Source: Fimbriimonas ginsengisoli (GTDB taxonomy: Bacteria > Armatimonadota > Fimbriimonadia > Fimbriimonadales > Fimbriimonadaceae). From it: a stretch of 64,000 nucleotides of DNA. Below the pieces are notes generated by a model that had not been told where the DNA came from, ran no database searches, and was given only the letters and a program-made list of their open reading frames with translations. The stretch spans positions 1 to 64,000 of the forward strand of contig JACOSL010000037.1 in NCBI GenBank assembly GCA_016179045.1, given 5' to 3'. Positions 42,757-50,539 of this stretch are shown piece after piece (position 1 is the first letter of the stretch; the number at the start of each line of letters is the position of its first letter). The position numbers and the translations under genes are program-made.

Positions 42757-42926
42757 CCTCCCCTTGAGGCAGGGGGAGGAAGCGTGAGCGGCATGTCCCG
42801 CCGAAGCTCCGGCCTAGGCCGAAGCGAACGCAGGTGGAGGTTCGTCGGCCTGCGCGTTGAACCGAGCACCTCCATCCGGTCTCAGTAAGCCTTCGACCGA
42901 CTTCCCCCTGCACGCAAGGGGAAGAT
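42757..42926 (+). repeat. Family B repeat, variant copy 4
   Basis: Carries CTCCCCTTGAGGCAGGGGGAGG, then GGTGGAGG, CACCTCCATCCGGTCTCAG, AGCCTTCGACCGACTTCCCC and GCAAGGGGAAG. The first half differs from the other B copies. Confidence 0.65.
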
Positions 42927-42951
42927 GCGGATCTGAGCCGCGAGTTCCGCA

Positions 42952-43140
42952 AACCCTTCCCTGCGGTGCGGGGGAGGGCAGTGAGTCCCGATTCCGATCG
43001 GGGCGAACAGGGTGGAGGCCTCCACCCACCTGGGGGGGCGGAACGCCCAAGTTCCGCGTCGCACCCAATCGCACCTCCATCCGGTCTCAGCGAGCCTTCG
43101 ACCGACTTCCCCCTGCAAGCAAGGGGAAGATGCCCGGACC
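42952..43140 (+). repeat. Family B repeat, copy 5
   Basis: CCCTTCCCTGCGGTGCGGGG, GTGAGTCCCGATTCC, TCGGGGCGAACAGGGTGGAG, CACCTCCATCCGGTCTCAG and CTTCCCCCTGCAAGCAAGGG in order. First element of the tandem composite. Confidence 0.78.
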
Positions 43141-43191
43141 AAGTCCGCCAGTTCGACCATCGTTGACGCAATATGTCCACCGGTCAAGCCC

Positions 43192-43371
43192 CTCCGCCTT
43201 GCGGCGGAGTGCCACCCCCCGGTTCGCTCCCACCTTCGCTCCGCTTCGGCGGTCAAGCCGCTCACCAACCCCCGCCTCGTAAGGGCAGGGGGGGTCTTAT
43301 TTTCTGTGGCTCGCTCGCCCCGTCCCGGGTCTCGCTCACCCTTTTTGTTGAGGACGCCATCCGTGGCGTCC
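43192..43371 (+). repeat. Family A repeat, copy 3
   Basis: CTCCGCCTTGCGGCGGAG hairpin, CCCCCGCCTCGTAAGGGCAGG, GGCTCGCTCGCCCCGTCCC, CTCGCTCACCC and GGACGCCATCCGTGGCGTCC. It is joined to the preceding B copy by a TTCGACCATCGTTGACGCA linker. Confidence 0.78.
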
Positions 43372-43458
43372 TTCGGTGACGATGGGGTAACAGAGCGCGA
43401 GACTCGCGAGCCACCGTCCTGAGCTAAAGGGGCCCTTACCGGATCGGCAATTCCGGGA

Positions 43459-43622
43459 ACCCCTTCCCTGCGGTGCGGGGGAGGGCGGTGAAGTTCCGAT
43501 TCCCATCGGGGCGAGCAGGGTGGAGGCTTCCACTCGTCTTGGCCCGTGAGCGAAAGCACCCCCTTCTCGCCTCGGCAAGCCTTCGGCGTCTTCCCCCTGC
43601 AAGCAAGGGGAAGTTGCCCGGG
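43459..43622 (+). repeat. Family B repeat, copy 6
   Basis: Same start as copy 5; the middle differs (GGCTTCCACTCGTCTTGGCC) and matches the copy at 39488-39648 more closely (CCCCTTCTCGCCTCGGCAAG). Second B of the tandem composite. Confidence 0.78.
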
Positions 43623-43675
43623 CTAAAGCCGCCAACTCGACCATCGTTGACGCAGAATGTCCAACGGTCAAGCCC

Positions 43676-43829
43676 CTCCGCCTTGCGGCGGAGTGCCACC
43701 CCCTGCTTCGCTCCGCTCACCGACCCCCGCCCCGGAAGGGCAGGGGTGGGGATAATTCTCTCTGGATCGCTCGCGCCCTCCGGGCGACTCGCTCACCTTT
43801 TCCTTCTCGGGACGCCATCCTTGGCGTCC
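43676..43829 (+). repeat. Family A repeat, copy 4
   Basis: CTCCGCCTTGCGGCGGAG, CCCCCGCCCCGGAAGGGCAGG, CGCTCGCGCCCTCCGGGCG, CTCGCTCACC and GGGACGCCATCCTTGGCGTC. The linker TCGACCATCGTTGACGCAGA precedes it, as before copy 3. Confidence 0.78.
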
Positions 43830-43926
43830 CCTCTGCGAGCAACGGGTTATCACTTGCGGGCGACGCGTGACGAGCCAGTCGTCATGCGGGCCCAACGCGG
43901 CTCATCCCGGCTCGGCATTTTCCGGG

Positions 43927-44090
43927 AACCCTTCCCTGCGGTGCGGGGGAGGGGAGTGAGTCCCGATTCCTATCGGGGCGAGCAGGGTGGAGGCTGGCGA
44001 GAGCGAGCGTCGAAGCGCCGTCACCCCCTTCTCGCCTCGGCATGCCTTCGGCGTCTTCCCCCTGCAAGCAAGGGGAAGGTGCCCGGACCG
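43927..44090 (+). repeat. Family B repeat, copy 7
   Basis: CCCTTCCCTGCGGTGCGGGG through CTTCCCCCTGCAAGCAAGGG, ending in GTGCCCGGACC. It is the third B in the array and is not followed by an A unit. The stretch 42735-44191 has no supportable gene; apparent long frames there are the repeats read in six frames. Confidence 0.78.
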
Positions 44091-48451: not shown

Positions 48452-49177
48452 GTGACTTCTTGGGATAGGCTTATTGGCGTGCACACGCAAGTACACACCC
48501 AGGGTCAGCCTGAGGCATTGGACCGGCTCGCCGCCGAGTTGCCTCGCTTTGCCGATGTCGCGCGCCTCGATGACATCGCAAACCAGGCGCGGGCGACGCT
48601 GTCATGGGCGGTCGCGGGGGCGTTGAAGTTCCCGGCGGACGTGCAGCCAGTTCCGACTGATCCCACCACGTGCCCGAACTGCGGCCTACCCGCGATCTCA
48701 CTCTCCAGCCCCTATTGCTCAGACTGCTGCAGGGACGAGGCGGCGTTCGTGCGACAGGTTCGCACCGGGCTCGCCGAAGGCTCGATTTTCGACCCAGAGA
48801 GGCAGGTGGCGCTCGGGCAGAAGCTGTGGCGGCTGGTCGGCGGGGGCTACCCGCTACGACGGGCGATGGTGCCGGAGAAGACCAAGCTCAAGGTCTTGGA
48901 GCGCGCCGATTGGCGATGCAAGGTCTGCGGCGCGCCCGCCACCACCGTCGACCACATCGGCAGCGGGTGAAACCGCCCGATCAACCTAGGCGCAGTTTGC
49001 GCCGAATGCAGCCAGACCAAACCCTTCGGAGACCCCGCGATCGCCCAGCGAGCGGAGAGCCTCGCGGCGCTCGATCGGCTGGCGGCGCGCATCGGCTCGC
49101 CGGTTCCCATCCGGGCTTGTGACGACGGGGCGACCTGGAACTGGCGCGGTTACGTCGCCCAGCGCCGCGCCCTGTAG
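48452..49177 (+). pseudogene. HNH endonuclease-like gene interrupted by in-frame UGA
   Basis: The frame runs from GTG 48452 to a TGA at 48968-48970 (codon 173), then stays open for 68 more codons to TAG 49175. The two sides join into one domain: a zinc ribbon (CPNCG...YCSDCC), then an HNH core CKVCGAPATTVDHIGSG-stop-NRPINLGAVCAECSQTKPFG. The TGA replaces one residue between the catalytic His and the second Cys pair, probably a Cys. Options are a nonsense mutation, a base error, or recoding, since a 6-bp hairpin with a G in its loop starts 18 bases after the TGA. As a plain stop the product is 172 residues without a complete nuclease site. Confidence 0.75.
48968..49003 (+). other. In-frame UGA with downstream SECIS-like hairpin
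   Basis: TGA at 48968-48970, 18 bases, then GGCGCA (48989-48994), loop GTT, TGCGCC (48998-49003): a perfect 6-bp stem. Bacterial SECIS elements sit at about this distance and have a G among the first loop bases. The bulged U of the E. coli fdhF element is absent, so support is weak. Confidence 0.25.
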
Positions 49178-49896: not shown

Positions 49897-50202
49897 CTAG
49901 CTTGCCCTCTTGAGGCCCAACTCCGCTTCGACCGCCGCTAGCGAGACGCCAACGGCCTCCGCGTACCTCAGCATCCGTCCCAACGACACGCGTAGAGGGT
50001 TTCGCTCAATCTCTGCGACACGTGGCCGAGCAACGCCCATGCGGTCGGCCACCTGTTGCTGGGTCAAGTTGCGTAGTTTTCTCAAGCGGGCGAGGGCAAG
50101 ACGCGCTTCCGATTGCTTCCAGGCGTTGGCGAACTCCGGATCCTTGCAACTCTCCTCGATCAGTTCATCGAGGTGATCCTTCTGGCGCGATCCACTTTTC
50201 AT
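49897..50202 (-). CDS. XRE-family antitoxin (HigA-like)
   Basis: 101 residues. The C-terminal half is a helix-turn-helix: LAALRKLRNLTQQQVADRMG-type helices (LRKLRNLTQQQVADRMGVAR) with RPRVAEIERNPLRVSLGRML. It neutralises the toxin and binds the promoter in HigBA/RelBE-type modules. It begins four bases after the toxin stop. Confidence 0.9.
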   Translation of the reverse strand: MKSGSRQKDHLDELIEESCKDPEFANAWKQSEARLALARLRKLRNLTQQQVADRMGVARPRVAEIERNPLRVSLGRMLRYAEAVGVSLAAVEAELGLKRAS

Positions 50203-50206
50203 GGGT

Positions 50207-50539
50207 TCATTCTCCTGTATCGATCATTCTCCGTCTCGCCGTATTCAGAATCCGAGCCGGCGCCTTCCGCGATTCCTTCTTGTAGAAGAGCAGCGCAACC
50301 AGAATCTCAACGCCATCGGCGATTTCAAGTCTCTTGAAGAACACGCACCGACCCTGGCCGCGGCCCGAATCAGTAATCATCCAGAGACCGCTTCCATAGT
50401 TTTCGATTCGATAGCCTGCGCCGAGATCGTTCCGGTAGGCCGCCATCGCTTCGAAGAGGCGTTGCCGGTCACGCGTGGGTATCGCCAGAGCTTCCTTCAC
50501 CGTCGTTGCCGTGTTGAAGCTGGTCCAGCGACGATGCAC
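50207..50539 (-). CDS. Toxin of the RelE/HigB (Gp49-like) family
   Basis: 110 residues. The pattern RDRQRLFEAMAAYRNDLGAGY, ENYGSGLWMITDSGRGQGRCVFF, and VALLFYKKESRKAPARIL matches the HigB/Gp49 mRNA-cleaving toxins, with basic residues in the last helix. The toxin gene comes first, as in HigBA. GTG 50539 lies six bases after TACAAT and has GGAGAG between, so initiation is SD-assisted or leaderless. Confidence 0.85.
   Translation of the reverse strand: MHRRWTSFNTATTVKEALAIPTRDRQRLFEAMAAYRNDLGAGYRIENYGSGLWMITDSGRGQGRCVFFKRLEIADGVEILVALLFYKKESRKAPARILNTARRRMIDTGE

Follow-up and report, generated by a model that had tools for sequence, protein, structure and literature searches.

A predicted selenoprotein family with an HNH-derived finger in the Fimbriimonadaceae

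The window analyzed here, a stretch of 64,000 nucleotides from Fimbriimonas ginsengisoli, contains an open frame interrupted by one TGA, and comparative analysis makes it almost certain that this is a selenoprotein gene whose UGA at codon 173 would be decoded as selenocysteine (Sec). The gene likely belongs to a new selenoprotein family of the Fimbriimonadaceae in which Sec and Cys are exchangeable. Three lines of evidence carry this reading: the codons found at the same position in homologous genes, a hairpin downstream of the TGA that covaries among TGA-bearing genes, and the Sec machinery of the genome.

A frame interrupted by a single TGA

The frame consists of 172 codons, the TGA, 68 sense codons and a terminal TAG (Table 1). 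Translation agrees with an earlier sequence-only reading of this DNA, which had placed the TGA at codon 173 and had noticed that the 68 codons after it complete a Cys pair: C183 and C186, the second CxxC, are encoded 3' of the TGA. The window comes from contig C35 of a genome (G000; 2.27 Mb in 66 contigs, 92.7% complete) that has the gene as one copy. The upstream gene ends immediately before the GTG at 48452, and we are unsure of the exact start codon, the alternative being the GTG at 48479; residues 1-11 are predicted with low confidence in the AlphaFold2 model.

Table 1. Positions of the gene and its features in the window
Feature	Position	Strand	Basis
Predicted selenoprotein gene	48452..49177	+	241 codons including Sec; stop TAG at 49175-49177; full-length homologues
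TGA codon 173, proposed to be read as selenocysteine	48968..48970	+	Homologue column and Sec machinery
N-terminal four-Cys (treble-clef-like) zinc knuckle, C74, C77, C89, C93	48671..48730	+	Invariant in 40 rows; weak YacG/double-zinc-ribbon profile matches
HNH-derived finger, C156, C159, D167-H168, Sec173, N174, R175, N178, C183, C186	48917..49009	+	PHROG, Foldseek, conservation
bSECIS hairpin, GGCGCA-GTT-TGCGCC	48989..49003	+	Covariation; within bSECIS constraints; not maintained in Cys genes
C-terminal tail, R213 ... D224-D225 ... W229-x-W231-R232	49088..49147	+	Conserved; translated only upon UGA read-through

Two further features of the window are recorded here. Positions 42866-44086 hold degenerate direct repeats of 63-128 nt, mostly about 465-510 apart, which are GC-rich and contain short palindromes (CTTCCCCCTGCAAGCAAGGGGAAG) and may be an intergenic repeat element. 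On the minus strand at 49897-50539, a small HTH_3 protein adjoins a 110-aa protein without a Pfam match; judged by their arrangement and sizes, the two may be a toxin-antitoxin pair.

Only TGA and Cys codons occur at position 173

Homologues, mostly with one TGA, turned up in 18 of 61 genomes searched at the protein level, these being the window genome and 60 relatives. Across 291 genomes of the phylum, a profile search placed full-length members in the Fimbriimonadaceae and one genome of the same order only. A separate motif scan of genome contigs used a Cys-containing motif and was therefore blind to Sec forms in other phyla. Records from Armatimonadota/Fimbriimonadaceae that carry the family include JAHCHO010000009.1 (129,574 bases) and MKRX01000008.1 (77,750), and identity to the window protein ranges from 37 to 52% among members. 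Among 41 Fimbriimonadaceae homologues, codon 173 is TGA in 22, TGC in 18 and TGT in one, with no other codon observed, and the same TGA is kept across about twenty related species. The typical Sec context is GSG-U-NRPINL, and the Cys contexts include GSGC, RTAC, KTAC and KTFC. Between pairs of TGA-bearing genes, dN/dS is 0.15-0.37 before the TGA and 0.19-0.27 after it, which indicates that the tail is translated and constrained. The sequence-only reading had stated that related HNH proteins have Cys at this place; that is correct for relatives within the family, but actinobacterial relatives have Ser, and in generic HNH proteins from this phylum the position is taken by other residues and the loop is longer.

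TGA genes occur in 21 genomes, of which 20 are selA-positive (the exception, G035, is 74% complete), whereas only 8 of the 19 genomes with Cys genes have selA (Fisher p = 3.5e-4, in a test that ignores relatedness). We count five changes between Sec and Cys on the tree, at least three of them forced by well-supported branches; independent Sec/Cys pairs mostly run in the expected direction, the well-supported ones numbering three, too few for significance in a sign test. A complete 5.2-Mb genome of the family assembled as a single contig (G127) contains both a TGA gene and selA; the cultured strain F. ginsengisoli Gsoil 348 has a genome of 5.23 Mb (PMC4072686).

Some members of the family are unusual in other respects. 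The TGA-bearing member L076 (G162:C503) has an extra in-frame TAG in its tail where its close sister in G161 is intact, possibly owing to decay or an assembly error. A genome from another family of the same order (G052, 6% contamination) contains two TGA-bearing copies (L028 and L054), one of them with a damaged knuckle and tail; these could reflect contamination or transfer. Finally, the record JADZEW010000008.1 (L044 / L070, G011) is titled as a Methanoregulaceae archaeon yet carries a family member, and since G011 is placed in the Fimbriimonadaceae the archaeal title looks wrong.

The hairpin covaries in TGA genes

The sequence-only reading had also described a perfect 6-bp stem with a G-first loop, 18 nt after the TGA and within the range for bacterial SECIS elements, and all of this holds. 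The loop is GUU (or A-GUU-U) and starts 24 nt past the UGA. Published constraints on bSECIS elements are a loop of 3-9 nt, a stem of 4-16 bp, a G in the first two loop positions, a distance of 16-37 nt from the UGA and an MFE at or below -7.5 (PMC13188914), and the window hairpin falls within every one of them (6 bp, 24 nt, -10.1 kcal/mol). In this GC-rich sequence it is no more stable than its own shuffles (MFE -10.1 kcal/mol, z -0.43), so the argument for a real hairpin comes from covariation among relatives and not from the folding energy of a single sequence.

The six-pair stem is found in register in all TGA genes, with 94.7% of cells paired (0/500 shuffles as high), 10 double-changed cells and a covariation of 0.293, compared with 0.104 in shuffles and at most 0.051 in slid controls. 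Compared with the commoner CGCGC/GCGCG, the window's GGCGC/GCGCC has changed in a compensated way, and the loops across TGA genes are AGUUU, CGUGU, GGUCU and similar. In Cys genes, by contrast, 61.4% of cells in the same columns are paired, a value that 249 of 500 shuffles reach and that is thus at chance level. Both arms of the hairpin encode conserved residues, and part of the sequence conservation is therefore at the protein level; it is the contrast between Sec and Cys genes that separates constraint on the hairpin from constraint on the protein. Two Cys genes, those of G026 and G015, retain the five core pairs, and G026, which is still selA-positive, may have changed from Sec to Cys recently.

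The genome encodes the Sec machinery

We searched the window genome for the Sec machinery family by family, and selA, selB, selC and selD, whose presence the sequence-only reading had proposed to check, are all there, selB being divided between contig ends. The tRNA-Sec gene scores 75.7 bits against a gathering score of 47, and a second program calls it a tRNA-SeC with a UCA anticodon. SelA is full length (497 bits). SelB is split between C30 and C23, at a contig end in each case (L029 and L033; profile positions 2-208 and 205-579), its N-terminal half being over the cut-off at 252 bits and its C-terminal half lying at the other contig end. SelD (347 bits) has an in-frame UGA of its own at the usual place, LASGAG-U-AAK. 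RF2 is present, over its cut-off, so that UGA is still a general stop in this genome and has not been globally reassigned; formate dehydrogenase is below its cut-off.

Two observations concern these genes themselves. The selB piece on C30 appears to change frame over its final bases, probably through an error at the assembly edge. The selD gene (L037, G000:C7:34373-35287, minus strand) is a predicted selenoprotein gene, and an inverted repeat rich in GC, CTGGGCCCGGCCCAG, follows closely on the UGA of GAG-U-AAK.

An HNH-derived finger with a shortened loop

The AlphaFold2 model, made with a 40-row family alignment, is well predicted including the tail (pLDDT 92.7, pTM 0.88). Cys 74, 77, 89 and 93 and Cys 156, 159, 183 and 186 are invariant in the 40 rows, and these eight residues probably form two four-Cys zinc-binding sites, the second being the HNH finger. 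There are matches to PHROG HNH profiles at E 1.6e-8, and the best PDB and viral matches in Foldseek are HNH proteins, with probabilities up to 1.00 and E-values above 0.001. Conventional family assignment gave little: the window protein does not match Pfam HNH (PF01844), for which two family members reach 10-12 bits against a cut-off of 21.4 (best E 0.006); no usable family was found for it in Pfam, NCBIfam or PADLOC, with nothing above the cut-off in NCBIfam; and a PDB sequence search gave marginal matches only. The TGA motif was absent from the viral contigs, and a search of the phage collection at E 1e-5 returned nothing similar to the window protein. Neighboring genes show no conservation across family members, so that genomic context is uninformative on function.

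Sec173 sits in a shortened finger loop between H168 and N178. The Cys/Sec at 173, N174 and R175 never vary in the family alignment. Position 168 is His in 32 of 40 rows and Asn in 8, and position 178 is Asn in 32; seven of the eight rows with N168 have H178, a swap that we read as a retained, if exchanged, His/Asn pair. Position 187, usually the third HNH residue, varies freely (S/N/A/T/C/R/Q/L), and it is this freedom that makes nuclease activity of the window protein uncertain. The designation of the gene as an HNH nuclease in the sequence-only reading is thus upheld by PHROG and Foldseek as far as the fold is concerned; the nuclease activity is putative, the third HNH residue not being retained.

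Discussion

The checks proposed in the sequence-only reading that could be computed all favor Sec, both the alignment column, with its UGA and Cys codons only, and the search for the machinery. We propose that the hairpin, which begins 18 nt past UGA 173, would direct SelB and Sec-tRNA-Sec to insert selenocysteine at this codon. Translation would then run on to the full length of about 241 residues, and the protein would derive from an HNH finger and carry two modules of four Cys each that probably bind zinc. We infer from these comparisons that Sec is physically inserted at position 173.

What Sec does there is a more tentative matter. Sec173 may act as a redox or metal switch or as a catalytic residue; one idea, which we would put forward with low confidence, is that Sec/Cys makes a nucleic-acid-binding protein of the HNH type responsive to redox state or metal, or that, next to the His/Asn pair, it acts as a nucleophile in catalysis or as a ligand. 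It is also conceivable, if on the doubtful side, that the protein is an active HNH nuclease whose Sec/Cys residue is structural and incidental, neither redox-active nor catalytic. The HNH fold and the His/Asn pair, kept even where swapped in seven rows, point that way, as do the nearest relatives outside the family, which pass Pfam HNH; however, variation is seen at position 168 and just after the last CxxC but never at residues 173-175, and both Sec, which is costly, and its SECIS have been maintained.

A second possibility, which we regard as unlikely, is a regulated dual product, with selenium deciding at the UGA whether a short form (the zinc knuckle and half of the HNH finger) or the full protein is made. 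Termination and Sec insertion do compete in known bacterial selenoprotein genes, by one account (PMC4513850), but the short form would lack the second CxxC and leave the finger incomplete, and the Cys homologues make the long form only.

Reading of the UGA as another amino acid is very improbable, whether through a suppressor tRNA charged with Cys, through Trp read-through or through reassignment across the genome. Suppressor tRNA-Cys with a UCA anticodon exists in some bacteria, and such a tRNA would yield the same alignment, Cys being the exchange partner. Yet the UCA tRNA here scores as tRNA-Sec, SelA, SelB and SelD are present, the covarying SECIS occurs in UGA genes only, and Trp never appears in the column; the presence of RF2 rules out reassignment across the genome.

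That the TGA is a nonsense mutation, which the sequence-only reading had thought the simplest explanation, or an assembly error or part of a decaying pseudogene, so that only the 172-residue piece is made, deserves almost no credence: in a single genome a lone in-frame TGA would look identical, and the G162 member does carry its extra TAG, but the same TGA in 22 genes, with Cys the sole alternative and purifying selection downstream, refutes it and rules out a sequencing error or a private mutation.

Recoding of UGA 173 as Sec is by far the best-supported reading. The family is likely to be new. A 2026 inventory, whose table cites Haft and Tolstoy 2025 for its families, comprises 119 prokaryotic selenoprotein families or subfamilies, with no HNH, nuclease or zinc-finger entry among them (PMC13188914). 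Our full-text literature search, which covered mainly open-access papers, found no report of a selenoprotein with an HNH endonuclease and none of a selenoprotein from Armatimonadota. Automatic annotation probably cuts such genes short at the UGA. The family would add a nucleic-acid-enzyme fold to a selenoprotein list dominated by thiol-redox folds, and Sec, retained over deep divergence and swapped with Cys several times, provides natural Sec/Cys pairs with which to ask what selenium does in a zinc-finger/HNH protein. If Sec does work beside the HNH His/Asn pair, the protein would be a nucleic-acid enzyme or sensor using selenium chemistry, through redox- or metal-gated cleavage or a Sec nucleophile, and Sec would have a role apart from those in redox enzymes and selenium pathways, which make up most of the published list.

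Several known systems share parts of this design. The N-terminal pattern resembles the CPxCG...YCSxxC-like zinc finger of YacG, a DNA gyrase inhibitor, a likeness restricted to the knuckle (19 bits against a cut-off of 79). Phage HNH endonucleases (PHROG 7785, 333 and 1271) have the HNH finger in common with the window protein, and phrog_1271 partly the N-terminal knuckle as well, at the level of profile similarity only. The closest outside relatives are actinobacterial HNH proteins such as WP_043795086.1 from the Pseudarthrobacter plasmid pACHL01 (30% identity over 84%, E 1e-14), which together with homologues from Curtobacterium and Frondihabitans plasmids shares the layout of CxxC...FCSxxC knuckle, GGY region and HNH finger; unlike the window protein, these relatives have Ser at the Sec site, retain the His after the last CxxC and pass the Pfam HNH cut-off. 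With established bacterial selenoproteins such as formate dehydrogenase and SelD, the gene shares the in-frame UGA, a SECIS just downstream, the SelA/SelB/SelC/SelD machinery and the existence of Cys homologues, but its product has an HNH/zinc-finger fold and is not an oxidoreductase.
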